Shown piece by piece: positions 290 to 18,437 of a stretch of 64,000 bases of DNA; positions within the stretch are counted from its first letter, which is position 1, and the number at the start of each line of letters is the position of its first letter. Source of the stretch: Alphaproteobacteria bacterium (GTDB lineage Bacteria; Pseudomonadota; Alphaproteobacteria; Rhodobacterales; Rhodobacteraceae). The stretch is from assembly GCA_029289325.1 (NCBI GenBank), contig JARFTV010000011.1:1-64000 (forward strand), given 5' to 3'. The position numbers and the translations under genes are program-made. Under the pieces are notes generated by a model. That model had not been told where the DNA came from. It saw only the letters and a program-made list of their open reading frames with translations, and searched no databases.

Positions 290-1015
290 TTAGTGACTGT
301 GACCCTCTGCCATTCGCTCCAGTGTGGCGATGTTGCAGATCAGCGTCTCGCCCTCGCGCCGCAGCGCACCGCTAGCCAGCAGCGCCTGGAACGCAAGGTT
401 CACCTTCGGACGCGTCGCGCCAAGGATCGCTGAAATGTCGCTCTGGTTCATCTCAAGCAAGAGCCGAGCTTCCGCCTGCCCGCCCGACTGTCTGGATTGA
501 CCGATGAGGTACAGCAAGAACCTGACCACCCGGGTCTGGAGGTCGTAAAGCGCGATGGATTCCATCTGGAAATTCGTGTGCCGCAGATGGGTGCAAAGAT
601 GTCGCGCCAGCGCCAGTCCCACATCCGGGCGTCGGGAGGCCACGGCCTCGAAGGATCGGCGGGGCAGGACGAAGCAGACCGTGTCCTGCACTGCCGTTGC
701 ATCGGCAGACCGCGGGGCGCCGTCCAGAAGCGCCATCTCCCCCAGGATATCGCCCGGTCCCAGTGTCTGCAGCACGATCTCGCGCCCGCGTGCACTGGAG
801 AGCGACAGCCGGATTCGACCGCTGCGAATGGCGAGCATGTGGTCGCCCTCATCCCATTGCGCGAAGATCAGGGCTCCTGCGGGCCAGGTGCGCTGACGCG
901 CGGCAGCGGTCATCTCGGCAAGGCTAGTAACGTCGAGGCCAGAGAAGATCGCAAAATCGGACAGAAGGCCGAAGCCCCCCGTACCGGTGGTCCCTCCGTC
1001 CGGCTGCGTCGACAT
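290..1015 (-). CDS. Crp/Fnr family transcriptional regulator (cNMP-binding domain + C-terminal HTH)
   Basis: ORF 290..1171 trimmed to internal Met (MSTQPDGG). Contains PGDILGEMALLDGAPRSADATA (cNMP phosphate-binding cassette-like) and C-terminal HTH (NQSDISAILGATRPKVNLAFQAL). Confidence 0.85.
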   Translation of the reverse strand: MSTQPDGGTTGTGGFGLLSDFAIFSGLDVTSLAEMTAAARQRTWPAGALIFAQWDEGDHMLAIRSGRIRLSLSSARGREIVLQTLGPGDILGEMALLDGAPRSADATAVQDTVCFVLPRRSFEAVASRRPDVGLALARHLCTHLRHTNFQMESIALYDLQTRVVRFLLYLIGQSRQSGGQAEARLLLEMNQSDISAILGATRPKVNLAFQALLASGALRREGETLICNIATLERMAEGHSH

Positions 1016-1105
1016 GACGCCTCTCCCATACCCCGACACCGCAGCCGACCGGCTGGATGGCCCCAAGGAAGCATAAACCGCTCCGACCCATGCAACAATC
1101 TCGAA

Positions 1106-1123
1106 CTGTTCCCGCGGGAACAG
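1106..1123. promoter_or_regulatory. Perfect 18-bp palindrome CTGTTCCCGCGGGAACAG in the divergent promoter region; candidate operator
   Basis: Read directly from sequence; lies between the Crp/Fnr start (1015) and the + strand ORF start (~1198). Confidence 0.6.
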
Positions 1124-1197
1124 GACGTCGGAGGAGAATCTGGCATGGTGATCCGCAGGACATACCGGCATCTGCCGTCATCAGCAGGGAGGGAGCC

Positions 1198-1643: not shown

Positions 1644-3212
1644 TTGACGCAGGAAACCTTGTTCCCGCCATATGATCGGAAGCGGCCTGACGAGGGTGGA
1701 ATGCGCAGACGACGCCAGAACTGGCCTTCGCCGCGGGCACATGTGGAAACCGGACTGCCCTGCTATTCCGACGCTTCGCTGGCCGAGCTGACCGCCCGCT
1801 TCGCAGGTACAATCACCTTGGCGGGCGGCCCGGGCTACAACGACGCCCGCGCGGGCTTCATGCACACTTACCAGAGCTACCCGCAGGTCATCGCCAGCTG
1901 CGTAAGCGAACAGGACGTGGTTGCTGCCCTGCGCTTCGCCCGCCACAACCGCTTGAAGGTGGTGGCACGATCAGGCGGGCATTCCACGGCGGGATATTCG
2001 GTCAATGATCAGGTCGTGGTGGACACCAGCGGCATCTCCCATGTCCTGATCGACCGCGAGACGCGGCGGGCCCGGGTTGGGCCGGGGGCGAATTTCCGAA
2101 AGCTGAACCTGATGCTGGATGCTGCCGGACTGCATGTCCCCGGCGGCGGCTGCGAGACGGTCTGCGTCGCGGGCTACATGCAGGGCGGCGGCTACGGCTT
2201 CACCTCTCGCCTTTTCGGGATGAATTGCGACCATGTCGAGGCGGTGACGATTGTGCTGGCCGATGGCCGAGTGGTCCGGGCGTCCCCTGACCAGCACGGC
2301 GACCTGCACTGGGCGGTGCGCGGCGGCACCGGCAACCAGTTCGGCGTCTTGGTCGAGATCGAATACCGACTGGTGCCCCTGCATGAGATGTTCGGCTTCG
2401 GCCTGCGCTTTCCTCTGACCGACCCGGCAGGGATCGACACAGCCGCGCGGGTCCTGGCCGAGTTGCAGGCCGGCTACAGCGACGGCGGCGCTCCGGGCAT
2501 CGGGCTTCAGGCGCTGCTGATGAACCTACCCACGGCCGGGCATCCCAAAGGCCAGATCCCCGGCCTGATGATCCGGGGACTCTACAATGGCACCGAGGCG
2601 CAGACCCGCGCGGCCTTGGCACCGCTCTTGGCCCACGTGACGCAAGGCAGGGCCGAGGTCGAGATCTGGCGGCGTGGCCGCTATCTCCATCTGAACGAGA
2701 TACTGCTCCAGACCGCCGATCCGCCGGGGATCGACATGCCGGCCGTATCGATGAACACCAAACCCATGGTTGACAGCCGGATCGTTGCCGAACACCACGG
2801 CCCCGACCGCTGGGGCGAGGTGGTGCAGCATTTCCTCCGCGCGCCCGACAAGACCACTTTCATCGCCCTGGAATTCTACGGTGGCGCGATCAACGAGATC
2901 GCGCCCGAGTCAACGGCCTTCGTCCACCGCGAGGCAAGTCTCAACCTCTTCGCCTGGGCATTCTGGACCTTCGATCGCACCCAGGAACGCGCGATTGCGT
3001 GGCTGGACGAGTTCGGTCGGATCGCCGGCGCGATGGGCAACGGGCGCCGCTACCAGAACTATCCGCGCCGGGGTAATCCCGGGTTTCGCGAACAGTACTT
3101 CGGCCAGAATCTCGAACGCCTGGTGGAGATCAAGCGCCGGCACGACCCGCACAACCTTTTTGCCTATGAGCAGGGGCTTTCGCCCGAACCGCCGACGGAG
3201 ACCCGGCCATGA
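1644..3212 (+). CDS. FAD-binding oxidoreductase, BBE-like (PCMH/berberine bridge family)
   Basis: VARSGGHSTAGYS and GGGCETVCVAGYMQGGGYGFTSRLFG FAD-domain motifs; C-terminal YQNYPRRGNPGFREQYFGQNLERLVEIKRRHDPHNLF is typical of the BBE domain. Confidence 0.9.
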   Translation: MTQETLFPPYDRKRPDEGGMRRRRQNWPSPRAHVETGLPCYSDASLAELTARFAGTITLAGGPGYNDARAGFMHTYQSYPQVIASCVSEQDVVAALRFARHNRLKVVARSGGHSTAGYSVNDQVVVDTSGISHVLIDRETRRARVGPGANFRKLNLMLDAAGLHVPGGGCETVCVAGYMQGGGYGFTSRLFGMNCDHVEAVTIVLADGRVVRASPDQHGDLHWAVRGGTGNQFGVLVEIEYRLVPLHEMFGFGLRFPLTDPAGIDTAARVLAELQAGYSDGGAPGIGLQALLMNLPTAGHPKGQIPGLMIRGLYNGTEAQTRAALAPLLAHVTQGRAEVEIWRRGRYLHLNEILLQTADPPGIDMPAVSMNTKPMVDSRIVAEHHGPDRWGEVVQHFLRAPDKTTFIALEFYGGAINEIAPESTAFVHREASLNLFAWAFWTFDRTQERAIAWLDEFGRIAGAMGNGRRYQNYPRRGNPGFREQYFGQNLERLVEIKRRHDPHNLFAYEQGLSPEPPTETRP

Positions 3213-5065
3213 CCGACAGCCCTCCAGACTGCACCTGCCGTGCTGATCCTAACGCCGCCTGCGCCGACTGGTGCGGACGGGATCCGAAGGACGGGCATGT
3301 CATCGGCCTCTTCTTCGATCCACCGATGGCCATAGCCCGCGTCGGCCGCTCGCCCGAGCCGATGGACGCCTATCGCTGGGAGATCGATGAGAACCCGCAT
3401 CGCGGCGTGCAGACCCGTATCGTTCCCGCGCCCTCGCTGCATCTGGAATCTGTCTCTGGTGATGGGCACTGGCCGCATCGGCTGGTGGTGGCGACGCCCG
3501 ACAGGATCACCTTCAAGGACCGCAAGGGCCGGGTCCGTCCGGTCGCGCCTTTCTTCGAGCTTTGGGCGCGGGTGCAGGACCCCGATGGCAGCCTCGTCAA
3601 CGTCCCGGTGACCCCGCTGTTCCTGAAGGCGCGGAAGGCGAAGCTCGCGGATCTGGTCTTCACCGTCGATGCGGGAAACCGCAAGGCGCAGTCGCGCACC
3701 AAGCTCGCCTCCTGCGCGGCGGTAGCGCATGTGTCATTCGCGGCCGATTCCTACCGCCCGCATCGGCTTGACGCGATAAGCCCTCGCACCCGGGACCAGG
3801 TCCCGCTGGTCCGCCCTGACGCGCCCCTGCCCTTGGGCTCGGTCCAGACCTTTCTTCCCGGCAACGGGGCCCCGGATTGCCGTACCCGTCTCGACCAGAT
3901 CCGGCTGCGCTTCACCCCCGGCAAGGGTGACGCCTTCGGCCCGCCGGACGCCGATGTCGCCACCGCCTCGCCCCGCCCGCCGGGGGATTTCGAGCCCGCT
4001 GTCACCGAGTACGGGCTGAACCACCGCATGACCCGGCCCGAGAACCGTATTCTCAGCCCGGCCACACCCTGGTCCGGGTTCAACTTCCGCACGGGCGGGA
4101 CGCCGAAATGGCCCACCCCGCAGGACAGCTATGATGGAGCGCGGGAGGGGTCCGGCGACGGCTGGGGCACGATCGACGATACCTGCGATCTGATCCTCCA
4201 GGCGGCGCTTACCCTCGACGGCCGGGTGTTTCGCGCCAGCGCCCGAGCCTTTGCTGGCCCGCCCGATTTCGCCCCTGACCGGCGTCCAATGTACTCGATC
4301 CGCGACGAGCTGGACGACCGCGAGTTGCCTCCGCCCGAACCTGACCCGGAAACTACACCGGACGAAATCCTGGACCTCTTCAGGCGCATCTTCGAGACCG
4401 CAAGCCTGGTGAACCTCGACCAGCGCAGGGCCTGGGCGCTGGCTGGCAATGCGGGGATACTCGGCGCATCGGACACAGAGGACCCAGCCTGGGACGACGG
4501 ATTGTCCCCTAAACTCGGACCGAAAAGCATGCGTGCGGGCGATGCCCCCTATGCTGAGCTTACGCCGGATTACACGCCCGAACTTGGGGACGCCCGCATT
4601 TCCGCTCCGGCAGGCAGTGGGCGGCTTCCTTTCACGCAGGTGGTGCAGCAGGTCCATGCCCGGATGGCCGACAGCCTGATCCTGCGCGAATTCTTGGCGC
4701 GCAGGCCTAGCCGGGTGCGCCGGATCGTCCGTCCTCCCTTCGCGCGGCTGGCCGACCTGCCGCGCCGGGTCGGAGTGCAGAAGCCAGCCGCCGTGCCCGT
4801 GGGTAAATGGGATCTTTCGCCAAAGAAGAGGGGCACACCCCGCACGCCCGACCCCGACCCTCCGCGCTACCGCGATCCGCGCGATGTCATGGACCAGACC
4901 TATGACATGCGGATGCCGCCCTACATGCGCCATTCGATGGGGGTACCGCTCAGCATCACACGGCGGCAGTACGATCTTCTGATGGCCTATCTCGACCGGC
5001 TGGAAACCGACCCAAGCTGGCGGGCAGACCCGAAACCCTCTGCCGCGCAGGACGATGATGAGTGA
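3209..5065 (+). CDS. LodA/GoxA-like protein, N-terminal part (split CTQ-oxidase family candidate)
   Basis: MAIARVGRSP near the N-terminus (LodA family IARVGNS-like) and C-terminal MRMPPYMRHSMGVPLSITRRQYDLLMAYLDRL (RMP...LT..QY..L..W-like). ATGA overlap with upstream gene. Confidence 0.6.
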   Translation: MTDSPPDCTCRADPNAACADWCGRDPKDGHVIGLFFDPPMAIARVGRSPEPMDAYRWEIDENPHRGVQTRIVPAPSLHLESVSGDGHWPHRLVVATPDRITFKDRKGRVRPVAPFFELWARVQDPDGSLVNVPVTPLFLKARKAKLADLVFTVDAGNRKAQSRTKLASCAAVAHVSFAADSYRPHRLDAISPRTRDQVPLVRPDAPLPLGSVQTFLPGNGAPDCRTRLDQIRLRFTPGKGDAFGPPDADVATASPRPPGDFEPAVTEYGLNHRMTRPENRILSPATPWSGFNFRTGGTPKWPTPQDSYDGAREGSGDGWGTIDDTCDLILQAALTLDGRVFRASARAFAGPPDFAPDRRPMYSIRDELDDRELPPPEPDPETTPDEILDLFRRIFETASLVNLDQRRAWALAGNAGILGASDTEDPAWDDGLSPKLGPKSMRAGDAPYAELTPDYTPELGDARISAPAGSGRLPFTQVVQQVHARMADSLILREFLARRPSRVRRIVRPPFARLADLPRRVGVQKPAAVPVGKWDLSPKKRGTPRTPDPDPPRYRDPRDVMDQTYDMRMPPYMRHSMGVPLSITRRQYDLLMAYLDRLETDPSWRADPKPSAAQDDDE

Positions 5066-6896
5066 ACCGCCCCGACCACTGAACCGCGCCGCCTATCCCG
5101 AGCCCGTGCTCGGCAACCCGGTTTCCACCCTGATGGAATCGGGGGTGGGCAACTGTTATCCCGGCCTGGAATTCGACCTGCGCCAGCTCGATACCCGGTT
5201 TTTTCCCGGCCTGACCTTCGATTTCCTTGGGATCGAGCCCTCGGGCCCCGACGGCACCCAGGGCGCACACCTAATCAACGCCGATGCCTCCAGCGACCCG
5301 ACCTTCCAGCAGGACTGCCCTTGGATCGCCGCCCTGCGCCGTCAGCTCAACGGACCGGAAGGCGCGGCCCTGGGCAGCGGCAACTGGTATCTGCATTGGG
5401 TCGAACAACAGGGCAAACGGATTGAACTTTACGACTTCGACGTCTTCCAGAACGCCACCTACCTTGTGCCCTATGAGGGAGAGACATGCTGGTGGATCAT
5501 CCGCTCGATCGAAGCCGACCCTGATGAGAGCACCGCCGATCTGACTATTGCCTTGTCCCAGCGGGATGCCAACGGCCAGCCCACGGGCACGCCGGTCGTC
5601 CTGCACGGCAAGCGGCGCCGCTATCTGGATGAGGCCGGGATGATCCCCGAGGTTTACCGTCCCGGTGAGCTCACCGCCTCGATGTGCAGCCCCTGGACGC
5701 ATGACTTCCGCGACTGCGCCTGCCAATACTGGGCGGCTAACCATCCCGACATTGTCCTGGGACCGGTCCACGGCTATGCGCTGGAGGATGGCACCTCGCG
5801 CGATGACGCGACGCAGGCGGTCACTTTCCTTGACTGGATGCGGCGACGGGGGACGGCGCCGGCGGTCATGGCCGAGGCCACGCTGGAACGCTCCCGGCCC
5901 GATGCTTATGACCCTTACGAGATCAACCTGCGCTGGCAGGAGCTGGATTTCGTCCTTCAGGGCGAGGAAACCGACGGAACGCCCGACCCAAAGCCAAAGC
6001 CAAAGCCAAAGCTAAAATCCGAGCCCGACCCGAACGAGCAGCACAGGCCCACCTATCCCTCAGTCGAAGCAGCGATGGCCGACCTGCGCGAGGAGCTTGC
6101 TCCGCTCGAATTCACGCTGTCGATGGTTTATCTTTACGCCCTCCTCTCGCTCCGCGCGCCAGAGGAGGTGACAGCAGAGGAACACCAGACATGGCACAGC
6201 CTGGCCGAGGACCTGGCCGCCGCGCGCCAGTCGCTCCTGGCTGTCGCAGTCAGCGAGATGACCCATCTGCGCTGGGTGAACCAGATGCTCTGGACCCTGG
6301 GTCGCGCAGGCTTTGACACCAAACACCCCTACAAGCCCGTGGTGCGGCCCCTGCCGCAGCCCGCCGCAGGGGCGTTGCCCGACGACCTGCATGCAAGGGT
6401 GCGGATGCTCCGTCCGGCCAGCCCCACGACGCTGGAGGATTTCGTTGACATCGAACGCCCCGCCGAGGCAGTCGACACCGAATATGCCGGGCTGGTCGAG
6501 TACCTGCGGCACAAGGAGTTTCCGGCGGGGCTGCATGAGCTGGCGGTGCGGATCGACAGCGACGGGCTCCAGCACTATCAGCGCTTCCGCAGCGTCGCCA
6601 CCTCCCTCTCTCGCTATGCGAGGGAGCCCCGACTCTACCTGCGCCCGATCGTGCTGGCAGACGCCAGCGATGCCTCGCTGATGCCTGCACTTGACCTGCT
6701 GGACCGGATCGTCAAGGCAACCGAAAATGGCTACGAAGCCGAGTTCCGTGACGACATGCCCGCGGCCGAAGCGGCGATCCTTGAGGCGCGCGAGGCAATG
6801 CGCGCCTTTCAGATAGAGGCAGAGCGGCTGGCCCGTGACGAGGGCAAAGGCATCCCCTTCTTTGCACGGTGGAAGGCGTCGGACCGTGCCCCGTGA
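5055..6896 (+). CDS. LodA/GoxA-like C-terminal part fused to a ferritin-like domain
   Basis: GNCYPGLEFD (G.FYPGIE-like) and PGELTASMCSPWTHDFRDCACQYWAANHPDIV (PGDLTK.MAVPWQADF..C...WWPA.RPD-like); C-terminal LEFTLSMVYLYALLSL...AVSEMTHLRWVNQMLWTLGRAGF resembles VioB-type ferritin-like domains (ExxH). Confidence 0.65.
   Translation: MMSEPPRPLNRAAYPEPVLGNPVSTLMESGVGNCYPGLEFDLRQLDTRFFPGLTFDFLGIEPSGPDGTQGAHLINADASSDPTFQQDCPWIAALRRQLNGPEGAALGSGNWYLHWVEQQGKRIELYDFDVFQNATYLVPYEGETCWWIIRSIEADPDESTADLTIALSQRDANGQPTGTPVVLHGKRRRYLDEAGMIPEVYRPGELTASMCSPWTHDFRDCACQYWAANHPDIVLGPVHGYALEDGTSRDDATQAVTFLDWMRRRGTAPAVMAEATLERSRPDAYDPYEINLRWQELDFVLQGEETDGTPDPKPKPKPKLKSEPDPNEQHRPTYPSVEAAMADLREELAPLEFTLSMVYLYALLSLRAPEEVTAEEHQTWHSLAEDLAAARQSLLAVAVSEMTHLRWVNQMLWTLGRAGFDTKHPYKPVVRPLPQPAAGALPDDLHARVRMLRPASPTTLEDFVDIERPAEAVDTEYAGLVEYLRHKEFPAGLHELAVRIDSDGLQHYQRFRSVATSLSRYAREPRLYLRPIVLADASDASLMPALDLLDRIVKATENGYEAEFRDDMPAAEAAILEAREAMRAFQIEAERLARDEGKGIPFFARWKASDRAP
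5988..6011 (+). repeat. In-frame hexanucleotide tandem repeat (CCAAAG)x4 encoding a Lys-Pro linker
   Basis: CCAAAGCCAAAGCCAAAGCCAAAG followed by degenerate CTAAAA; protein PDPKPKPKPKLKSEPDP. Confidence 0.9.
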
Positions 6897-8214
6897 TCTC
6901 TCGCCATCGGTGATTGATGCCGCCCGGCCCCGCAGTGCCCATGGCCATCTCGCCGGCGACCTCGCGCTTGTTGCAGAGACAATGGCGCTTTACCGGCTGG
7001 ACCAGGCGCAGATCGACACACTGGCCCGGGGCCTTGAGGCAGGCGATGCAGGCACGGCACAGGCTTTGGAACGGCTGGGCCTTGCACTACCTGCCCCGCG
7101 CCCTGCGCTGCCCGATCCGACCCGACCGATCCGCGCCTTGACGTTGACTGTCTCGCAGACCTGCAATCTTGCCTGTGTTTACTGCTATGCCGGCGGCGGC
7201 AGCTTCGGCGGCCCCGACAAGCGGATGGGATGGGACGTCGCACGGCAGGCGATCGACGCACTGATTGCCGAAACGCCCCCCGGCGGCAGCGTCCGCATTG
7301 CCTTTATGGGCGGCGAGCCAATGGCCAGCCGCGCATTGATCCGCCGCGCGGTACAGCACGCCCTACATCGGGCGGCGACGCGGGCGGTATCGGTCGGCTT
7401 TTCCATGACGACGAACGGCACGCTGGTGACGGAAGCGGACGCCGAATTCCTGGCCCAGCACCGCTTCGCCGTCACCGTCAGTCTGGACGGCGATCGCGCC
7501 GCGAATGACCGGTTGCGCCCGACGAAGACCAAGGCCGGCAGCTTCGACCGCGTGGGCGAAGGTGTCACACGGCTGGCCGCGCGGTCGGACCGGATCGCTC
7601 TGTCCGCCCGTGTCACCGCGACGCCCGACAATCTGGACCTCGAGGCCACGATGGCCGCGCTTGGCGCGCTTGGGTTCGCCTCGGTCGGCGTGTCGCCGAT
7701 GCTCACCTCGCCCACCGGGCAGGGCGCGCTTCGCGGCGACGATTTCACCACGCTTCTGGACGCGATGATCCGGTGCGGTGAGGCGTGGTTGGCGGCGGTT
7801 CTGTCCGGTGGAAGCCATCCCTTCGCCAACCTCGCCACCGCCCTGAGCGAACTCCACAGGGGCCAGCCGCGCAGCCATGCCTGCGGCGCTGCGCGCGACT
7901 ATCTGGCCGTGGATGCCGAGGGCAGCTATTCGGCCTGCCACCGTTTCGTCAACGACCCCCTCGGTCGGATGGGCACCCTCGGCGCGATCGACCATGACGC
8001 GCGGCGGGCCTTCCTGATCGAGCGCGCGGTCGAGCGGCAGGGCCCCTGTGCCTCCTGCTGGGCGCGGCGACTTTGTGGCGGGGGATGCCACCATGAGGTG
8101 CTGCACGCTGGGCGGCCAGCGTGCGATTATGTGCGCGGCTGGCTCCATTTCGCGATGACAGCTTATTCCCGGCTGATTGCGGCCCACCCGGCCTGGTTTG
8201 ATGGGCCGGGCTGA
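6886..8214 (+). CDS. Radical SAM/SPASM domain peptide or protein maturase
   Basis: CNLACVYC (CxxxCxxC) core, MGGEP, and SPASM cysteines CGAARDYLAVDAEGSYSAC...CASCWARRLCGGGC. ORF extends to 6835; GTG at 6886 overlaps the end of the preceding CDS. Confidence 0.9.
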   Translation: MPRDLSPSVIDAARPRSAHGHLAGDLALVAETMALYRLDQAQIDTLARGLEAGDAGTAQALERLGLALPAPRPALPDPTRPIRALTLTVSQTCNLACVYCYAGGGSFGGPDKRMGWDVARQAIDALIAETPPGGSVRIAFMGGEPMASRALIRRAVQHALHRAATRAVSVGFSMTTNGTLVTEADAEFLAQHRFAVTVSLDGDRAANDRLRPTKTKAGSFDRVGEGVTRLAARSDRIALSARVTATPDNLDLEATMAALGALGFASVGVSPMLTSPTGQGALRGDDFTTLLDAMIRCGEAWLAAVLSGGSHPFANLATALSELHRGQPRSHACGAARDYLAVDAEGSYSACHRFVNDPLGRMGTLGAIDHDARRAFLIERAVERQGPCASCWARRLCGGGCHHEVLHAGRPACDYVRGWLHFAMTAYSRLIAAHPAWFDGPG

Positions 8215-9544
8215 AACCGAAGTCGCCATCCTTGGCGCAGGCCCCGCAGGGATCGCTGCGGCCTGTGGTCTTGTGTCTGCCGGGGTGGAGGTTACCCTGA
8301 TCGACGCAGGCACTCCCCTTACCCCCCGGGTGGAGAGCCTGCCCCAAAGCGGCCTCGCGCTGGCCGAAAGCCTTGGACTTGCCGACGCCATCGCTACCGC
8401 CACACTCGGCCAGGCACGGGAGATGCGGATGCACTGGCGCGTCAGCCCCGAGCGGCGCGTGTTCGGCGTCGAGGCGCCCCTGCTTCTTGACCGGATTCTC
8501 CTGCACCGCGCACTTGGCAGCGCAGTCACTGGCCTCCGGCGGATCACCGCCCGCGCCCGGATCCTCGGGCCCGAGGGGGGCCGGCCCCGCGTCCGGGTTG
8601 GGGACTGCATCCTGACTGCCCGGATCATCCTTGACGCGCGGTGCCGCGCGGCCCAACGGTCGCGCGCGGGTCTGGTGGCCCTGGCCTTCGTGGGACGGCA
8701 GGCCGATCGCGCCCTTCCCGCGATGGAGATCGAGGCGCTGGCGGCGGGGGGGCTGTGGGCCTCGACCTTGCCGGACGGTCGGGTCTCGGGACAGCTCTTC
8801 CTACCCGCCGCCACGCTGGCCGGACTCGACCGCCAGGCGCGCCATGGGCTCTTGCATCGGCATCTCGCGGCGATCTTTCCGGACATGGTGCTACGGCCGG
8901 GCGCAGTTGCCCCGGCTATGCTGACGGCCGTCGATGATCCAGTCGCGGGACCCGGCCTGCTCCGACTGGGCGATGCCGCGCTGGCCCGGGATCCGATCGC
9001 CTCGCATGGCCTGATACACGCCTTGCGCAGCGGCGGGCAGGCGGCGGTGGCGGTCGCCACACTTCTTGACCCGGCCTGCGACCCGCAGGCGGCGCTGGCC
9101 TTCCTGCGCGACCGACATCGCCGCGCGTTTGTCGCGGCCCAGGCCGCCACCGCCAGGGCTTATGCTGACCAATCGCGGCTCCGCTCACCCTTCTGGGAGG
9201 GTGAGGCCCCTGCCCTGCCCACCCAGCCCCAGCCCTGGCCGTCGCTCTCCCGCCCGCTGACGCTGGCCGCCCCACTGCGGCAGGTGCCAGTGCTGGAGCC
9301 CGACCGGATCCGCTGGGCGCACGGGCTTTGGCTGGAAACCAGCGGCGAGGCGGTTCCCCGCCTTGGTCCGATCTCGGCACCGGCGCTGGCCCAGCTGCTA
9401 ACGCCACCCGCGCCGCTGACGGAACTCTCCGCGAGGCTGGAACGTGCCGTCGGTCAGGCGGTGGCCCAAGCGATCCTCCGGCGCCTCCTCGATGAGGGCG
9501 CGCTGGCCTCCCTGACTCAGCCCGAGGTCGCCAGAAGCGCCTGA
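8201..9544 (+). CDS. LodB/QhpG-like FAD-dependent oxidoreductase
   Basis: VAILGAGPAGIAAACGLVSAGVEVTLIDAG Rossmann motif; LGDAALARDPIASHGL resembles the FAD-binding GDAA motif of halogenase/monooxygenase families; in operon with LodA-like ORFs. Confidence 0.75.
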   Translation: MGRAETEVAILGAGPAGIAAACGLVSAGVEVTLIDAGTPLTPRVESLPQSGLALAESLGLADAIATATLGQAREMRMHWRVSPERRVFGVEAPLLLDRILLHRALGSAVTGLRRITARARILGPEGGRPRVRVGDCILTARIILDARCRAAQRSRAGLVALAFVGRQADRALPAMEIEALAAGGLWASTLPDGRVSGQLFLPAATLAGLDRQARHGLLHRHLAAIFPDMVLRPGAVAPAMLTAVDDPVAGPGLLRLGDAALARDPIASHGLIHALRSGGQAAVAVATLLDPACDPQAALAFLRDRHRRAFVAAQAATARAYADQSRLRSPFWEGEAPALPTQPQPWPSLSRPLTLAAPLRQVPVLEPDRIRWAHGLWLETSGEAVPRLGPISAPALAQLLTPPAPLTELSARLERAVGQAVAQAILRRLLDEGALASLTQPEVARSA

Positions 9545-12500
9545 GAGCGCCGGTCGTCCCAGCCCCCGTCGACCGAGATGATCCGCCCGCGCAAAAGCCG
9601 CAGCAGCGCAATTGGCTCTGGCGAGGGGTCCAGCTCGACAAGATCGCAGCCGATGCGCAGCGCCAACATCCGCGCCCCGCTGGCCTCGGCCATCTGGAGG
9701 GCGGCGGCAAGCTGCCGCTGCGCGGCATCCCGCTTGCCCTCGGCCACCAGCACCTTCGCCCGCAGGCGCAGCAGCTCGGGGCGCATCCACGTCTCGCCCG
9801 TACTGTCTTGCAAGGCCTCCGCCTGATCCAATGCCCGCGCGGCCGCGTCGATATCGCCCGCGCGCAGGAAAAGGCTTGCCATCAGCGCGCCGGTCAGCGG
9901 GCCGTAGTTGTAGGGATTGAACCGCCGGAACGCGACATCGGCCGCCTGAAGCTCTTCCAGCGCGGTGGCATTGGGCGGATCGGACTGCGCCAGAAGATGG
10001 GCCACCTTGCCGAAAAGAACGCCCGCGCCCTGCATCGCCGGCAGCCCGTGCCGCGCGCTCACCTCTTCGGCCTCGGCCGCGCAGGCGATTGCCGTTGTGG
10101 TGTCCTGTGTAAGCGTGCCCAACATGGCCCGGAAGGCAAGCGCCTGGGCAAGCGAGTGGGTATGGGCGATCCGGCGCGAATGATCGACGGAAAAGGCACT
10201 GATACGCTCGGCTTCGACCGGGTCACCCTTCGACCAGAGGGTGAAGGACAGGAAGGCTGCGCAGATTTCAGCGTGGTCATAGCCGTGGACATGCGCCAGC
10301 TGCAGATGTTCGGCCTCGTCATAGCTGCCCAACGCCTGGCGAAGAAGGCTTGCCGCCTCGTCCAGCGCACCCGTATGGAAGGCCACCACGCCAAGACCGC
10401 GATCGCCGATCATGCGAAAGGTGCGGTCCTGCGACAGTTCCGCCGTCTCGCGCAGCCTTGCCGCCCACTCGCCCGCCGCCGGATAGTCGGACCGGACCAG
10501 AGCATGGGCGTAAAGCCCATTCAGCGCGATCATCTCGCTGCGCCTTTCGCCAAGCGCCTGCGCCAGCTCCAGCACCTGCCTCCCTAGTACGCCCGCTTCA
10601 TCCGAGGCGATGCCAAGCCGCGCGCGGCTTATTGATGCCTGGCCGACCAGCGCGCGCAGGCGAAGCAGTTCATGCGCCCGAGTCCGCTTCAGAAGATCAA
10701 GCGAGCCAATGGCCTGCCGAAGGAAATGCTCCGCTTCGATCAGGGCAGAGCGTGAGAGCGCCTGTTCCCCCGCCACCAGCGCCAGCGGCGCTGCGGTCAC
10801 GTGATCCTCGGCCTGGGCCGCGTGCCAGGCCAGAAGCCCGGGGCGCAGTCGGCTGATCTCGGGTTGGCTTTCGATCAACGCGCCGTAGACCGCTTGGTGA
10901 AGCGCCTTGCGGGTGGATTTCACCAAGCGCTCATACCCAACCTCGCGGTAGAGCGCATGTTGGAACCGCAGGCGGCGCCCGGGCCCTTGACCGGACTGCG
11001 CGATGATCCCGTTGGCCAGCAGCTCGGCCAGGGCAGCGTCGAGGTTCCCAGAGGCAAAACCAAGGGCGTGGGACAGCGTCGCCACATCGGTCGGTTCGTC
11101 GAACACCGCTAGCACCGCGACCGCCTGACGGCCAAGTTGCAGCCGATCCAACCGCCCCGCAATGCTTTCGTAGATCGAGGCAGGCACCTGAAAGGCCTCG
11201 CGCAAGGCGGCATCGTCCTGCCCCTCGACCGACCGCGCCAGCGCTTCCAGCATCAGGGGATTGCCATCGCTCCGGGTGATGATCGCCTCGGCGATACTGT
11301 CGGGTAGCCGGCGGCCCTTCAGGTGATGCGCCAGCACCTCGCTGGCTGCCGAAGGTTCCAGCGCCACGACCGCGAGGTCGAGATGTCGCGGATCACCGGG
11401 CCAGAGCGTCCGCTCCTCATGGCGGGAGGTGGCGACAATCAGCACACCCCGCTCCGGCAGATGGGCGGCACACAGGGAAAGTAGTTCGCGCGTAGAGGCA
11501 TCGGCCCAATGCAGGTCCTCGACCGCGACCAGACGGGGACCACCCCCAACAAGAAAGCGCGCAAGCACAGAAAGCAGTCGCGCACGTCGTTCGGTCGCCG
11601 ATCCGGCGGCGCCGAAGGGCTCGGCCAGGTCCAGAAGCGAGGCGATGGACTTAAAATCATTCTCTTCGACCTCACCCAGCAGGGCTCGCAGCGAAGACAG
11701 CCGTGCCTCGGACGAGGTGGCGCCGGTCTCGGCCAACAGGGCCTCGAGCAGTTGGACGACCGGGCGCAGCGGGGTGTGGCTGGCCACGGCAGAACAGGCC
11801 AGACGCAGGACTTGGGCGCCATCGGCCTCGGCCCGCGCGGTGATCTCGTTCAACAGCGTGGACTTGCCGATCCCTGCCTCTCCCGACAGCAGAGCCAGGG
11901 CCGATTGTCGACTGCGCGCGCTTGTCCAGGCGTCGGCCAGAAGGTCGCTTTCCCGCCGATGGGCGCTGCGCAGGACCTCGACGTCTGGCGGCGACGGTCG
12001 CGGCGGCGCTTCCCCCGACGGCAGTGCCTGCCAGACCTGCTCCGGCGCGTCAAAGCCCTTGAGCCGGGCGTCGGGCAGCCGAAGGAAGCCGCTGGCCGAA
12101 CCGACCAGTTCATGCGTAGCCTCATCCACCACAACCGTGCCAGGTGCCGCCAGCGCCTGCAGCCGCGCGGCCCGGTTGACGGCGGGGCCGATGATCTGGA
12201 CCCCTTGGCCTGGGGTCGGGACCTCGGTCCGGCCTACCACGGTCTGACCGTTGGCAATGCCGATCCGCGTAGCGACCGGGATCTGGTGCCCATCCGCCAT
12301 GCGGTGCGACATCCCGGTCAGATCGGCCTGCAGCGCCAGCGCCGCTGCGACAGCGCGCTCTGCATCGCTGCCAAGGCTGACGGGATAGCCGAACAGCGCG
12401 ACGATCCCGTCACCAAGCAGGGCGGCAATATGGCCGCCAAGCGGTTCGACCGCCTGCCGGGCGGCAGCATAATACCGTTCAAGGATCGACCGGACATCGT

Positions 12501-12822
12501 CAGGATCGATGCGCACGGACAGTTCGGTGAAGCCGATCAGATCGCTGAAAAGGACGGTAAGTCGCCGCTGCTCGAACCCTGCAGCCAGAGGCACCGCTCC
12601 CGGCCCGGTCTTGAGGCGGTCGGTGAGCTTGCGGCGCTGGCCAAGCGTCAGGCCAAGCTCGCGCAGATCGCTGTCGGACAGGGACCACAACACCGACCCG
12701 TCGATATCCTCAGCCGCGAAACGGGGCGCAAGATGGGCAAGCCCGATGCTGCGAAGCGTAGTCTCGACCTCGGGACAGATTTGGCGCGATTGGGTTGCCC
12801 GATTTTCGACACATTGTTCCAT
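9517..12822 (-). CDS. SAM domain - class III adenylate/guanylate cyclase - AAA ATPase - TPR-like protein
   Basis: LTVLFSDLIGFTELS, LGDGIVALFGYP and VNRAARLQ cyclase motifs; P-loop GEAGIGKST; N-terminal SAM-like IGLAHLAPRFAAEDIDGSVLWSLSDSDLRELGL. Confidence 0.88.
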   Translation of the reverse strand: MEQCVENRATQSRQICPEVETTLRSIGLAHLAPRFAAEDIDGSVLWSLSDSDLRELGLTLGQRRKLTDRLKTGPGAVPLAAGFEQRRLTVLFSDLIGFTELSVRIDPDDVRSILERYYAAARQAVEPLGGHIAALLGDGIVALFGYPVSLGSDAERAVAAALALQADLTGMSHRMADGHQIPVATRIGIANGQTVVGRTEVPTPGQGVQIIGPAVNRAARLQALAAPGTVVVDEATHELVGSASGFLRLPDARLKGFDAPEQVWQALPSGEAPPRPSPPDVEVLRSAHRRESDLLADAWTSARSRQSALALLSGEAGIGKSTLLNEITARAEADGAQVLRLACSAVASHTPLRPVVQLLEALLAETGATSSEARLSSLRALLGEVEENDFKSIASLLDLAEPFGAAGSATERRARLLSVLARFLVGGGPRLVAVEDLHWADASTRELLSLCAAHLPERGVLIVATSRHEERTLWPGDPRHLDLAVVALEPSAASEVLAHHLKGRRLPDSIAEAIITRSDGNPLMLEALARSVEGQDDAALREAFQVPASIYESIAGRLDRLQLGRQAVAVLAVFDEPTDVATLSHALGFASGNLDAALAELLANGIIAQSGQGPGRRLRFQHALYREVGYERLVKSTRKALHQAVYGALIESQPEISRLRPGLLAWHAAQAEDHVTAAPLALVAGEQALSRSALIEAEHFLRQAIGSLDLLKRTRAHELLRLRALVGQASISRARLGIASDEAGVLGRQVLELAQALGERRSEMIALNGLYAHALVRSDYPAAGEWAARLRETAELSQDRTFRMIGDRGLGVVAFHTGALDEAASLLRQALGSYDEAEHLQLAHVHGYDHAEICAAFLSFTLWSKGDPVEAERISAFSVDHSRRIAHTHSLAQALAFRAMLGTLTQDTTTAIACAAEAEEVSARHGLPAMQGAGVLFGKVAHLLAQSDPPNATALEELQAADVAFRRFNPYNYGPLTGALMASLFLRAGDIDAAARALDQAEALQDSTGETWMRPELLRLRAKVLVAEGKRDAAQRQLAAALQMAEASGARMLALRIGCDLVELDPSPEPIALLRLLRGRIISVDGGWDDRRSQALLATSG

Positions 12823-12978
12823 AATGGCCTGACTATGGAACAAATCACGCTCAGGTAAACCGTAATCGGTCCGCGAAAGGCCGGCAATGCGCCAGATACC
12901 CGCTGACAGCAGAAGCGTTGCCCCGGCAGACAACCACGAGTTACCGCCATCTGGTCAGCACTGGATTTCCTTTAAGAA

Positions 12979-13043: not shown

Positions 13044-15668
13044 TCACTCGGCAGCTTCGCGGTGGCTGTGACGGTGGATCAGGGCGGCTAGTTCCGGACG
13101 GCAGGATCCGCAATTGGTGCCTGCACCAAGGGCCTTGCCCAAGGCCCGAACGCTGGGCGAAGTGCCGTCTGCGAGGGAGCGGAGGATAGTATTCAATCCC
13201 ACATTCAGGCAGGCGCAGATCGTAGGGCCAGGATCGGGCTGATCGATTCCGGGCCGCCCGGCGAGAGGTCTCTCAGCCAACTTTCCCAGTAAACCCGCCA
13301 GATAGCTCCGGGCCAGCAGAACCGGCTCGGTCGAGATGAAGATGGCGCCCTGAAGGAGCCCATTTTCGGTGAAGGCAAACCGTTGCAGACCGCGCGCTCG
13401 GTCTGACAGGGCAACGGTCGGTTCCGTGCCGAACAACGCACCGACCCAGTCGGTCCAGTCGGCTGGGGCAGCCATGCCTGCAAGCTCCAGGTGCCAACCG
13501 CCCGCGGCCCGAGACTTCGCCCAATATTCGCAAGCCGGGTTAAGGTCATTGCGCGCCACGGCAAAAGCATACCATGCCGCCGGAAAAGGACGGATGGAGA
13601 CTGCGGCGGACTTGCTGGCCGGCTGACCCGAGACCGGGTCGGTAAGCGCCGGAACCAGCGCATCGACGCGGCCGGTGGGCGCCGTCTGGGCCGTCCAATG
13701 CATCGGTGCGAAAGGGTGGCCGGGGGCAACACGATCACTGAGAAGAACCCGCAGAATGGCGCTGCCATGGGGGCTCGTCACTTCCGCCAGCGTGGCGGGA
13801 CCCAGGCCACGGCACGCGGCATCCGCCGGATGGATCTCAAGGAACGGCTCGCCCAGGTGTTGCGACAGGCGCGGGGCAATGCCGGTTCGCGTCATCGTGT
13901 GCCACTGGTCGCGGATGCGCCCGGTATTCAGGCGGAAGGGATAGTCTGGCGTTGTAGCATCAGGCAGGCGAGCCACGACGGGCACCAGCCGCCCCCGCCC
14001 GTCCGGCGTGTGAAACCCCCCGTCGCCGAAGAACCGACGCGCGCTCGCCCTGCCGTGCGGCCAGGTGACAGGTTCAAGGTGGTCGTAATCGGCGTCGGTG
14101 AGACCCGAGATGTCGAAATCGCTGCCCAGTTCCGCTGCGAGCGCGGAAAGACGGGTGTACTCCCTGAAGATCTCCGCCGGCCCCGTCCAGTCGAAACCCT
14201 GAAAGCCCATTCGCCGCGCCACCTCGGCTAGTTGCCACCAGTCCGGCCGCGCCTGCCCCGGCGCGGGCAGAAAGGCGCGCTGCCGGCTGATCATGCGTTC
14301 GGAGTTAGTGACCGTCCCGTCCTTCTCGCCCCAGCCGGTTGCGGGCAGCAGAACATGCGCCAGCCGTGCAGTGTCGGTGTCAGCGCGGATGTCGCTGACC
14401 GCCAAGAAGTCGCAGGCAGCCAGCGCGCGAGCAACGCGGTCGGCTTCAGGCAATGTCACTGCCGGGTTGGTATGCAGGATCCACAGCGCCTTGATCCGAC
14501 CTTCCTCGACCGCACGGAACATGTCCACCGCCTTCAGGCCCGACCTCTCGGCTATGACAGGCGAGGCCCAGAACCCTTGCACCGCAGCGCGGTGGGCCGG
14601 GTTCTCGATCTCAAGGTGACAGGCCAGCATGTTGGCCAGCCCGCCCACCTCGCGCCCGCCCATGGCGTTGGGCTGCCCGGTCATCGAGAAGGGTCCCATG
14701 CCCAGCCGCCCGATCCGCCCTGTCAGAAGGTGGCAGTTCAAGATGGCGTTAACCTTGTCGGTCCCGCTCTCCGACTGATTGATGCCTTGAGAGTAGACGG
14801 TCACGACCTTTTCAGTCCCAGCCCAGAGGGTCAGGAACCGTTCCAAATCGGCGGGTGAAAGGCCGGTATCCCCGGCCCTACTGGCCCGCGCGGCCGTCAA
14901 GGCTGCATCGACGCCGGTGACATGCGGGGCGAAATCGGACGCCAGCAGCCCATGGTCATAAAGATGGCAGAGGAGCAGATTGAACAGGTGCCCGTCCGCC
15001 CCAGGCGCCAGCGGCAGATGAAGGTCCGCCCCCTCACAGGTAGCCGTCCAGCGCGGGTCAATGACGATGATCTTTGTTCCCCGCTCGGCTCGTGCCGCCA
15101 TCACTCGCTGATGCAGGACTGGATGACACCAGGCGAGGTTCGAGCCCACCAGCACGACCAGATCGGCAAGCTCCAGATCTTCATACTGCCCGGGCACCGT
15201 GTCCGACCCGAAGGCACGCCGATGCCCCGCCACGCTTGAGGCCATGCAGAGCCGCGAATTGGTGTCGATATTGGCGCTTCCAATGAAGCCTTTCATCAGC
15301 TTGTTGGCCACATAATAATCCTCGGTCAGGAACTGCCCCGAGACATAAAGCGCCACCGAATCCGGCCCGTGCCTGGCGATGGTCTGCGCAAACCGCTCCG
15401 CGATCAGGTCCAGCGCCTGACTCCAGCCGACTTCGGCGCCACCGATCAGTGGAGCCATAAGCCGCCCTGTGGTTGTCACCGTCTCGGCCAATGCCGCGCC
15501 CTTGATGCAGATCCGCCCGCGGTTGGCCGGATGGTCGGGGTCGCCCATGATCGTCACGCCGCCCTTGCCGTCCGACGCGGCCACCACCCCGCAGCCCACG
15601 CCGCAATAGGGGCAGGTCGTACGGACAGTCGTCTCCAAATGGGTGCGGGTTGAGGCTTGGCCAATCAT
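13044..15668 (-). CDS. nasA: Assimilatory nitrate reductase catalytic subunit with C-terminal BFD-type [2Fe-2S] domain
   Basis: CPYCGVGCGV N-terminal Fe-S motif, molybdopterin oxidoreductase sequence, C-terminal CACLNVG...GTNCGSCRPEL. Confidence 0.93.
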   Translation of the reverse strand: MIGQASTRTHLETTVRTTCPYCGVGCGVVAASDGKGGVTIMGDPDHPANRGRICIKGAALAETVTTTGRLMAPLIGGAEVGWSQALDLIAERFAQTIARHGPDSVALYVSGQFLTEDYYVANKLMKGFIGSANIDTNSRLCMASSVAGHRRAFGSDTVPGQYEDLELADLVVLVGSNLAWCHPVLHQRVMAARAERGTKIIVIDPRWTATCEGADLHLPLAPGADGHLFNLLLCHLYDHGLLASDFAPHVTGVDAALTAARASRAGDTGLSPADLERFLTLWAGTEKVVTVYSQGINQSESGTDKVNAILNCHLLTGRIGRLGMGPFSMTGQPNAMGGREVGGLANMLACHLEIENPAHRAAVQGFWASPVIAERSGLKAVDMFRAVEEGRIKALWILHTNPAVTLPEADRVARALAACDFLAVSDIRADTDTARLAHVLLPATGWGEKDGTVTNSERMISRQRAFLPAPGQARPDWWQLAEVARRMGFQGFDWTGPAEIFREYTRLSALAAELGSDFDISGLTDADYDHLEPVTWPHGRASARRFFGDGGFHTPDGRGRLVPVVARLPDATTPDYPFRLNTGRIRDQWHTMTRTGIAPRLSQHLGEPFLEIHPADAACRGLGPATLAEVTSPHGSAILRVLLSDRVAPGHPFAPMHWTAQTAPTGRVDALVPALTDPVSGQPASKSAAVSIRPFPAAWYAFAVARNDLNPACEYWAKSRAAGGWHLELAGMAAPADWTDWVGALFGTEPTVALSDRARGLQRFAFTENGLLQGAIFISTEPVLLARSYLAGLLGKLAERPLAGRPGIDQPDPGPTICACLNVGLNTILRSLADGTSPSVRALGKALGAGTNCGSCRPELAALIHRHSHREAAE

Positions 15669-15997
15669 GCCGCTGAGCGCCGAGCCATAAAGTCCGCATC
15701 CAAGTACACCCTCCCGCTTTCGACCCTGGCGGCATAGGTGGCAACCCTCGCCTCATCGCCACCTTGCGCGAGGCCGGTGGCAAGATCGAAGACCATCCCG
15801 TGCAGCGGACAGGTGACCTGAGCGCCATGCACGATCCCTTCAGACAAAGGTCCGCCCTTGTGCGGGCAGCGGTCGTCCAGCGCAAAAACCCGGTCGTCGG
15901 CGATGCGAAAAATTGCGATGCAGCCCTGCGGCGTCCTCACCACCCGGGCGCCGTCACGCGGGATGTCGTCAAGGGCTGCGACGTCGATCATGGTCAT
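15665..15997 (-). CDS. nirD: Nitrite reductase small subunit, Rieske-like
   Basis: CPHKGGPLSEGIVHGAQVTCPLHGMVFDLATG; start trimmed to MTMIDVAALDDIP. Confidence 0.92.
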   Translation of the reverse strand: MTMIDVAALDDIPRDGARVVRTPQGCIAIFRIADDRVFALDDRCPHKGGPLSEGIVHGAQVTCPLHGMVFDLATGLAQGGDEARVATYAARVESGRVYLDADFMARRSAA

Positions 15998-16010
15998 GTT
16001 GTGGCCCTCC

Positions 16011-18437
16011 TCATTCCGCCGCCCGCAATCGCAGATCCGCCACCGGCTGCCAGTCGACCGGCCGCTCGGCATATGCGGCCCAAGGATCGGCCTGATGGAT
16101 CGACTGGCTCAGCATGAAGCGGTCGTAAAGCGCGCGCCGGATCGCAGGGTCCACGATCTGGGCGCGGCACCAGTCAAGGCCGACCTTCGCCACCCACTTG
16201 TAGATTCGATGCAGGTAGCGGGCATTCTCGCGGTATAGCTGGGTGAAGGCGGCGATCACCTCCATTGCCTCATCTTCGGTCGCGACAGTGACCAGAAGTT
16301 CAGTCTCCTTCACATCCATCCCAGCCGCCCCCGCGACGCTGATCTGGTAGCCACTATCCACGCAGACAACGCCGATATCCTTGCAAGTCGCTTCGGCGCA
16401 GTTCCTTGGGCAGCCGGACACGCCCAACTTGACCTTGGCCGGCGTCCAGGACCCCCAGAGGAGTTTTTCCAATTTAATCCCGAGGCCGGTGGAATCCTGC
16501 GTGCCGAAGCGGCAGAATTCGGAGCCGACACAGGTCTTCACTGTGCGCAGCCCCTTGGCATACGCGTGACCCGAGACCATCCCGGCGGCGTTCAGGTCGG
16601 ACCAGATCGCGGGCAGGTCTTCCTTCCTGACACCCAGCAGGTCGATCCGCTGGCCGCCGGTCACCTTGACCATCGGCACGGCGTATTTGTCCGCCGCATC
16701 GGCAATCGCCCGCAGCTCCGCCGGAGTGGTCACCCCGCCCCACATGCGGGGGACGACAGAATAGGTGCCGTCCTTCTGGATATTGGCGTGGTTTCTTTCG
16801 TTAACGAAGCGCGATTGCCGGTCGTCGCGGTAGTCGAGCGGCCAGTCGGCCAACAGGTAGTAGTTCAGTGCCGGGCGGCACGAGGCGCAGCCGCCGACCG
16901 TCTTCCAGCCCAGCTCCTGCATCACGGCGGGAATGGATTTGAGACCGCCGGCCTTTATCAGCCGCCGCACGTCCTCATGCGTGTGGTCGGTGCATTTGCA
17001 CATCGGCGGATTGGCATTGGCGGTAAAGCCGTCGCCCAGCGTCAGCGCCATGACCTGCTCCACAAGGCCGGTGCAGGTGCCGCAGCTGGCGCTAGCCTTG
17101 GTGGCGGTCCGAACCGCATCCAGCGTGCTGGCGCCACCTTCGATTGCAGTAACGATCCTTCCCTTGCAGACGCCGTTGCAGCCACAGATCTCCGCCTCAG
17201 GCGGCAAGGCTGCAACGGCTGCCAGAGGGTCCGCTGAAGCGCCCCCCTGAAACGCCGGGCCAAAGATCAGCGTGTCGCGGATCGCAGATACGTCTTCGCC
17301 CGTTCGGATCTTGTCGAAGAACCAGGCCCCGTCGGCGGTATCGCCATACATGACCGCGCCGATCAGCCGGTCATCTTCCACCACCAGCCGCTTGTAGACC
17401 CCACGCCCGGGATCGCGGAAGACGATATCCTCGCGGCCCGGAGCACCGGCAAAATCTCCGGCGCTGAACAGGTCAACGCCGGTGACCTTCAACTTGGTCG
17501 CGGTCTGCACAGGGCGGAAAGCGGCCTCTTGCCCCATCAGGGTCGCGGCCAGCACCCTAGCCTGGTCGTAGAGCGGGGCCACCAGACCGAAGAGCTGCTT
17601 GTCATGCTCAACACATTCCCCCAGCGCAAAGATCGAGGGGTCGGAGGTGCGCATTTGGTCATCGACCGTGATCCCGCGTCCGATGTCCAGACGTGCATCG
17701 GTGGCGATGCGGATTTCGGGCCGGATGCCCACCGCCATGCAGACAAGGTCAGCATCATAGACAGTGCCATCCTCCAGCAGCACTGCTTCTACCCTGCCCT
17801 TTCCCAGAATTGCCTTGGTCGCACCTTTGCAATGCACACGGATGCCGCGTGCCTCGAGGTCCCGTTGCAGAAGATAGCCCGCGGCCGGGTCCAGTTGACG
17901 CTCCATCAGGTGACCCATCAGGTGGATCACCGTCACCTCCGCCCCGCGGGCGGCCATTCCGGCCGCCGCTTCCAGCCCCAGCAAGCCGCCGCCGATCACC
18001 ACCGCCTTCGCACCCGGGCCGCTGGCGGCGATCATCGCGTTCGTATCGTCGAGGTCGCGATAGGTGACGACGCCGGGCAGATCGCGTCCTGCCACCGGGA
18101 TCATGAAGGGCGCGCTACCGGTCGCAATCACCAGCACGTCATAGGGTGTCTCGCCCCGCTGCGAGACAACGACTTTCCGGCCGCGATCGATCCTGACCAC
18201 CGCCTCGCCAAACCGACACTCAACCCCCCGAGCGGCATACCAAGCATCGTCATGCGTGACGATCTGATCATAGGTCTTCTCGCCCGACAGCACCGGCGAC
18301 AGCATCAGCCGATTGTAATTGCCGCGCGGCTCGGCGTTGAACAGTGTCACATGGCCGTCAAAGCCCGCTTCGAACAGATGCTCCAGCATCCGGCCCGAGG
18401 CCATCCCCGCCCCGATCACCACAAGTTTCCAGGTCAT
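16011..18437 (-). CDS. nirB: Nitrite reductase [NAD(P)H] large subunit
   Basis: VVIGAGMASGRMLEHL, BFD-like CGCNGVCKG, siroheme/4Fe-4S CPRNCAEATCKD. Confidence 0.95.
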   Translation of the reverse strand: MTWKLVVIGAGMASGRMLEHLFEAGFDGHVTLFNAEPRGNYNRLMLSPVLSGEKTYDQIVTHDDAWYAARGVECRFGEAVVRIDRGRKVVVSQRGETPYDVLVIATGSAPFMIPVAGRDLPGVVTYRDLDDTNAMIAASGPGAKAVVIGGGLLGLEAAAGMAARGAEVTVIHLMGHLMERQLDPAAGYLLQRDLEARGIRVHCKGATKAILGKGRVEAVLLEDGTVYDADLVCMAVGIRPEIRIATDARLDIGRGITVDDQMRTSDPSIFALGECVEHDKQLFGLVAPLYDQARVLAATLMGQEAAFRPVQTATKLKVTGVDLFSAGDFAGAPGREDIVFRDPGRGVYKRLVVEDDRLIGAVMYGDTADGAWFFDKIRTGEDVSAIRDTLIFGPAFQGGASADPLAAVAALPPEAEICGCNGVCKGRIVTAIEGGASTLDAVRTATKASASCGTCTGLVEQVMALTLGDGFTANANPPMCKCTDHTHEDVRRLIKAGGLKSIPAVMQELGWKTVGGCASCRPALNYYLLADWPLDYRDDRQSRFVNERNHANIQKDGTYSVVPRMWGGVTTPAELRAIADAADKYAVPMVKVTGGQRIDLLGVRKEDLPAIWSDLNAAGMVSGHAYAKGLRTVKTCVGSEFCRFGTQDSTGLGIKLEKLLWGSWTPAKVKLGVSGCPRNCAEATCKDIGVVCVDSGYQISVAGAAGMDVKETELLVTVATEDEAMEVIAAFTQLYRENARYLHRIYKWVAKVGLDWCRAQIVDPAIRRALYDRFMLSQSIHQADPWAAYAERPVDWQPVADLRLRAAE

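Follow-up and report, generated by a model that had tools for sequence, protein, structure and literature searches.

The five-gene operon described here probably encodes a two-subunit oxidase of the LodA fold with a cysteine tryptophylquinone (CTQ) cofactor and its own QhpD-like and QhpG-like maturation enzymes, the cofactor-bearing subunit (LA2) also carrying a ferritin-like domain. This reading comes from sequence comparison: the family assignments, a QhpC-type signature in LA2, the alignment of its C221, W226 and D217 with LodA, and a strict linkage to one type of radical SAM enzyme. We found no description of the operon's gene family, which extends over nine bacterial phyla, in the open-access PMC literature, nor a paper there joining a QhpD-type enzyme to LodA; an earlier description elsewhere is possible.

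Organization of the operon

Positions 1644-9544 of the window (the whole 64,000-nucleotide stretch analyzed) hold five ORFs, all on the + strand. A preliminary description of this DNA had read them as joined by overlapping stop/start junctions, and both the coordinates and all four overlaps were verified: 3209/3212 (ATGA), 5055/5065, 6886 (GTG)/6896 and 8201 (ATG)/8214. The open frame of gene 4 begins upstream of its start, at 6835, and that of gene 5 at 8177. The features are as follows.

1644-3212, + strand: BBE-type FAD oxidoreductase (PF01565, PF08031; bicovalent-flavin motif)
3209-5065, + strand: LA1, the LodA/GoxA N-terminal region as its own subunit, 618 aa (hhalign, Foldseek)
5055-6896, + strand: LA2, the LodA C-terminal region plus a ferritin-like domain, 613 aa (LodA_C, PF12902, hhalign)
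5154-5171, + strand: NCYPGLE of LA2 with C34...E39, candidate first thioether pair (conservation in 38 relatives)
5685-5750, + strand: QhpC-type signature CSPWTHDFRDCACQYWAANHPD in LA2 (pattern match; LodA alignment)
6063-6869, + strand: ferritin-like (PF12902) domain of LA2, residues 337-605 (Pfam, AF2, Foldseek, conservation)
6886-8214, + strand: QhpD-like radical SAM/SPASM enzyme (TIGR03906; Cys motifs)
8201-9544, + strand: QhpG-like flavin monooxygenase (NF049967 QhpG)

Divergent from the operon, at 290-1171 (-), lies a Crp/Fnr-type regulator gene (PF00027, PF13545), possibly the regulator of the operon. The downstream flank holds convergent genes for an AAA/guanylate-cyclase protein and nitrate/nitrite reductase-like proteins, at 9517-12933 (-) and 13044-18437 (-). 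A tRNA-His found by ARAGORN at 56677-56764 (-) falls within overlapping long ORFs of both strands, which are probably not all genes. Elsewhere in the same genome, two adjacent radical SAM matches occur on contig C104 (5460-6840, -). The single LodA_C match in this genome is LA2 of the operon, and a search of the genome did not find a QhpC gamma subunit (PF08992).

LA1 and LA2 correspond to the two parts of LodA

The second and third ORFs had been described as a split LodA/GoxA-like protein, on the strength of an IARVG opening and an RMP...LT..QY segment in the former and PGIE-like and PGDLTK.M.VPWQ.DF..C-like segments in the latter. All of these were found, as PPMAIARVG and RMPPYMRHSMGVPLSITRRQY in LA1 and as CYPGLE and PGELTASMCSPWTHDFRDC in LA2. 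That the resemblance is not due to chance follows from hhalign comparison with canonical LodA, in which LA1 matched the N-terminal region (probability 98.9, E 1.1e-17) and LA2 the cofactor region (probability 94, E 1.5e-7). The split is further borne out by natural fusions: LA1 and LA2 form a single ORF in 11 of 80 related loci, for example L053. These 80 loci came from a scan of genome contigs with an alignment of the radical SAM enzyme and hence were gathered through that gene. LA1 matched no Pfam family, LA2 scored 21.7 bits for LodA_C (below the Pfam gathering cut-off of 25), and direct phmmer searches of the PDB gave no related structure for either protein.

The comparison with LodA/GoxA structures proposed in the preliminary description was made with AF2 models. 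The first 25 Foldseek hits of the LA1 AF2 model (pLDDT 72) were all GoxA (E 7.5e-9, probability 1.0), with TM scores of only 0.2 to 0.3. The LA2 model (pLDDT 76) orders two parts, the ferritin-like domain and the domain that follows the first Cys, but leaves the CTQ segment (residues 211-237) unordered, with pLDDT below 50, and so offers no geometry for the cofactor. For the LA1 model, GoxA was followed by 1jju_A, the alpha subunit of QHNDH (E 0.016, TM 0.14), which hints weakly that LodA and QHNDH may be related beyond the CTQ segment.

Predicted cofactor and crosslinks in LA2

LA2 carries the signature C211-x5-D217-x3-C221-x-C223-x2-W226-x5-D232, which is exactly that of the crosslinks and cofactor in QhpC, the small subunit of quinohemoprotein amine dehydrogenase (Qhp). 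The corresponding search pattern, C-x5-D-x3-C-x1-3-C-x1-2-W-x5-D, matched once in each of 109 loci, all of them LA2-like (radical SAM-linked LodA-C) or QhpC genes and a few being repeat fetches of one place. It had no other match in 3.16 million six-frame residues and none in 7.76 million shuffled amino acids, and it was absent from the LodB-only LodA loci sampled (L098-L112 and L116, with L110 excluded as the window itself). PF08992, the family of the QhpC gamma subunit, did not hit LA2; nine relatives hit it weakly (best E 0.023).

LodA numbering, read from the alignment with 3weu, places D512 and C516 in PWQADFFNC and W581 at the second Trp of WWPPQSP. Aligned through canonical relatives to 3weu, C221 of LA2 is LodA C516, W226 is W581 and D217 is D512. 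None of these three, the counterparts of the Cys and Trp of CTQ and of the catalytic Asp, varies among 38 relatives of LA2. The same numbering led us to drop two other candidates for the CTQ Trp, W214 in SPW and W294 in W.ELDFV, leaving W226.

In QhpC, thioethers join C7-E16, C27-D33 and C41-D49, and CTQ is made from C37 and W43 (PMC8172795; PMC7876137). The residue order of QhpC, C27-D33-C37-C41-W43-D49, is that of LA2. Four Cys recur among the 38 relatives, C34 in at least 90% (Ala replaces it in L094) and C211, C221 and C223 in all; E39 is conserved in at least 90%. Given the same order and the signature match, the three non-CTQ Cys of LA2 match the three that QhpD crosslinks; the canonical LodA sequences sampled do not conserve them. 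Most likely, then, the thioethers predicted from the alignment are C211-D217 and C223-D232, and the predicted CTQ is C221-W226. For C211, D220 was also considered as partner and rejected, since Gly stands there in L119 whereas D217 is invariant. C34...E39 is a candidate for the first pair, as counterpart of QhpC Cys7-Glu16, with a spacing of 5 rather than 9.

It had been suggested earlier that Cys might be crosslinked in the LodA-like halves or that an unusual quinocofactor might be matured. Crosslinks are indeed predicted, but all predicted modified residues lie in LA2, and the LA1 alignment has no invariant Cys; as for the cofactor, an ordinary CTQ is most likely.

Both maturation enzymes resemble those of Qhp

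The operon has, as previously described, its own radical SAM/SPASM enzyme. Its best family is QhpD (TIGR03906, 283 bits, below the equivalog cut-off of 453), and its Cys set is complete: CxxxCxxC of the radical SAM site (C110/C114/C117) and a seven-Cys SPASM pattern (C350, C368, C405, C408, C414, C418 and C430), both invariant in the seven rows aligned. In a tree, the LodA-type radical SAM enzymes form one group, with QhpD on a separate long branch.

The flavoprotein had been called LodB-like, and the operon accordingly a combination of the LodB and Qhp maturation logics. Neither description held. The nearest model is QhpG (NF049967, 212 bits with a cut-off of 240), with GoxB at 67 and LodB at only 37, so that by its sequence the operon flavoprotein is QhpG-like, not LodB-like; therefore the Qhp logic appears to be applied to a LodA fold, rather than mixed with that of LodB. 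Of this proposal, a likely Qhp-like maturation stands. Eight relatives encoded beside the same radical SAM enzyme scored 269-311 bits for QhpG versus about 54-129 for LodB/GoxB, and at L017, a LodA-like locus that lacks this radical SAM, the partner is of the LodB type (182 versus 169 for QhpG). In Qhp, QhpD acts before QhpG, which dihydroxylates the unmodified Trp in triply crosslinked QhpC, unlike LodB/GoxB (PMC7876137).

One could imagine instead that CTQ is made here as in LodA, by self-hydroxylation with a LodB-like flavoprotein, and that the radical SAM enzyme makes some other modification, for instance on LA1 or between LA1 and LA2. LA1 and LA2 are LodA-fold proteins by hhalign, and QhpG, LodB and GoxB are related families. 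We nevertheless regard this as very improbable: the flavoproteins linked to this radical SAM are of the QhpG type, LA2 has three extra Cys at QhpC positions that sampled canonical LodA does not conserve, and LA1 offers no invariant Cys.

The locus L017 itself, on a contig of genome G251, encodes a LodA-like protein (6482-8890, -) and a LodB-type flavoprotein, with a QhpD-like gene absent in 13 kb. Its LodA-like protein has a segment, AWWPVQRPDIV, in common with the radical SAM type and QhpC; the three extra Cys are absent. From its sequence, it looks like an intermediate form.

The ferritin-like module and the BBE enzyme

The C-terminal PF12902 domain of LA2 (42.1 bits versus a cut-off of 22.3), which the preliminary description had overlooked, is modeled mostly with pLDDT above 90, and its top Foldseek hit is 3hl1 (CC_0557; probability 1.0, E 3.3e-3). 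Residues E352, E401/H404, E467 and D503/H507 are conserved and are possible metal ligands. Of the 80 loci, 70 encode a PF12902-type protein, 33 of them as a fusion with LA2 and 37 as a separate gene nearby, usually directly upstream of LA1.

The BBE protein (PF01565, 107 bits; PF08031, 47.9 bits; both above cut-off) has the bicovalent-flavin motif, with His in SGGHS and Cys in GGGCETV; its ORF gives 522 aa from a TTG start, the true start being uncertain. It had been proposed as the partner of the oxidase. The gene is present, but it appears to be an accessory confined to one sub-type, being found in 30 of the 33 loci with a fused ferritin domain and in none of the 37 with a separate one.

Might the ferritin-like and BBE enzymes be the real purpose of the operon? 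The radical SAM enzyme would then make structural thioethers in LA2 but no quinone, the flavoprotein would be otherwise employed, and LA1/LA2 would be mainly a scaffold for those two enzymes. Sequence by itself cannot reveal a quinone, no other part of LA2 folds or scores as well as the ferritin-like domain, and PF12902 is the ferritin-like domain of VioB-type enzymes. We consider this explanation improbable, however, because all 38 relatives keep the two CTQ residues and the catalytic Asp known from LodA, and the gene set includes a flavoprotein of the QhpG type, an enzyme known to dihydroxylate Trp. For the CTQ oxidase that we prefer, VioA/VioB may offer an analogy for a ferritin-like module that handles the imine or peroxide from CTQ.

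PF12902 genes have also been described beside fungal lodA-like genes, and further LodA-like proteins carry a fused catalase (PF00199) or PF14518 domain (PMC4417212).

Distribution and linkage to the radical SAM gene

The five-gene order is repeated in five other genera of the family, and the radical SAM tree of the loci covers nine phyla. The LodA parts of the related loci are mostly annotated as "hypothetical protein." A LodA-C-like gene with the signature lies within the fetched stretch in 75 of the 80 loci; of the five without one, four are on short contigs and the fifth is L057. As a sample independent of these radical SAM-gathered loci, 72,556 plasmids were searched for LA2-type proteins. 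This gave 19 records, all 19 of which also encode this radical SAM type, and the plasmid records with this radical SAM type were exactly the same 19, the other radical SAM matches listed being PeaB/QhpD. Because the 80 loci were found by way of the radical SAM gene and the LodA-type radical SAM enzymes form one group in the tree, the co-occurrence does not represent many independent events. Scanning 398 genomes of the phylum with LA2 gained little.

Several loci depart from the common arrangement. L057 (Acidobacteriaceae) encodes a radical SAM and a flavoprotein of this type together with further genes, one of them a flavin oxidase-like ORF, and has a ferritin-like gene about 5.5 kb downstream; no LodA part is visible in the fetched stretch. 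A divergent sub-type is found on the plasmids L121, L126, L127 and L128 (Nostoc, Rhizobium sophoriradicis and Streptomyces). The first three have the order LodA-N-like gene, radical SAM, LA2 with ferritin-like domain, a flavoprotein being annotated neither between these genes nor directly after them; in L128, a ferritin-like and LodA-N-like fusion lies upstream, and a weak flavoprotein match is at 10014-11210. Tyrosinase is encoded downstream on two further plasmids, L119 (Mesorhizobium sp. AR10) and L120 (Rhizobium leguminosarum), and L119 also has multicopper oxidase and cytochrome P460 genes. Tyrosinase and multicopper oxidase neighbors have been reported for some canonical lodA loci (PMC4417212).

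Relation of QhpC to LodA

The equivalence of QhpC Asp33 and GoxA Asp678 has been pointed out before (PMC7876137). From our comparisons, QhpC and the C-terminal region of LodA look homologous, the matching segment being short. QhpC matched canonical LodA over WWPAQ..P and W..LG (66.7%, E 5e-5), and when a model of the LA2 core was run on 12,997 ORFs, each of the seven QhpC copies ranked, at E 0.002-0.08, alongside canonical LodA; in the reverse search, LodA-like proteins led the non-QhpC matches. The likeness of LA2 and QhpC might instead be convergence on a motif recognized by related radical SAM enzymes, which would touch only the evolutionary claim. Outside the segment their similarity is weak: QhpC gave a probability of only 8.6 (P 0.004) with the radical SAM-linked LodA-C profile and 0.8% with the full LA2 alignment (hhalign), QhpC being short and its alignment shallow. 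Convergence seems unlikely to us, given that QhpC still matches canonical LodA, which lacks such a radical SAM, and ranks with it in both directions of search.

Proposed enzyme

We propose that LA1 provides the LodA N-terminal region and LA2 the cofactor-bearing C-terminal region with its diiron-type ferritin-like domain. The QhpD-like enzyme would form thioethers from C34, C211 and C223 to E39 or D41, D217 and D232, respectively, and these bonds would fix the shape of the segment. Next, W226 would be dihydroxylated by the QhpG-like flavoprotein, become oxidized and couple to C221, which would complete the CTQ. As LodA and GoxA do, the mature enzyme might deaminate its substrate, either an amine or an amino acid, yielding an imine and hydrogen peroxide. 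We infer that the ferritin-like module handles one of these products from the CTQ, using or removing the peroxide or acting on the imine, and the BBE flavoenzyme would be an accessory oxidase of this sub-type. The pairing of quinone and ferritin-like module suggests a new kind of tandem oxidase.

Going further, one can tentatively envision a third class of tryptophylquinone enzyme, with a triply crosslinked CTQ segment of the QhpC type in a LodA fold and a diiron ferritin-like module using imine or peroxide; QhpC and the LodA C-terminal region would then share one ancestor, and QHNDH-type and LodB-type CTQ enzymes would form one superfamily. Two families of cofactor-making enzymes are connected by the operon. 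So far, QhpD and QhpG have been known from a single enzyme, QHNDH; here their relatives go with LodA-type proteins across nine phyla. If the proposal is true, a stretch within a large enzyme would be the target of radical SAM thioether chemistry, and two CTQ families regarded as separate would be united. A function could then be given to many genes now labeled "radical SAM protein," "tryptophan 7-halogenase" or "hypothetical protein." Predictions at the residue level are available for the three crosslinks and the quinone.

Comparison with known systems

LodA/GoxA, matured with LodB/GoxB, are matched by LA1 plus LA2 in the N-terminal and CTQ regions, with the CTQ Cys and Trp and the catalytic Asp aligned. 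The operon differs from them in being split into two chains and in having three additional Cys that pair with acidic residues by prediction, a radical SAM enzyme, a QhpG-type instead of a LodB-type flavoprotein, a fused ferritin-like domain and a LodA_C score below cut-off.

With Qhp (QhpC, QhpD and QhpG), the operon shares a QhpD-like radical SAM, a QhpG-like flavoprotein and the signature C-x5-D-x3-C...C...W-x5-D. Pfam searches of the five ORFs and of the regulator gene upstream showed neither the diheme alpha nor the propeller beta subunit of Qhp. The substrate segment here lies inside the 613-aa LodA-like LA2 (about 800 aa in fused relatives), whereas QhpC is a leader-bearing peptide of 110 aa. 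In the tree, the operon's radical SAM enzyme lies far from QhpD.

PF12902 proteins (VioB-type; CC_0557, PDB 3hl1) have the same ferritin-like domain with conserved E/EMTH/D...H residues, but the domain is here fused to, or encoded beside, a LodA-like oxidase. For the fungal lodA-like genes with PF12902 neighbors, PMC4417212 reports no radical SAM. Finally, LodA-like fusions with catalase (PF00199) or PF14518 (PMC4417212) likewise join the LodA fold to a metal redox domain; the operon differs from them in the domain, the end of the protein at which it is attached, and the maturation genes.
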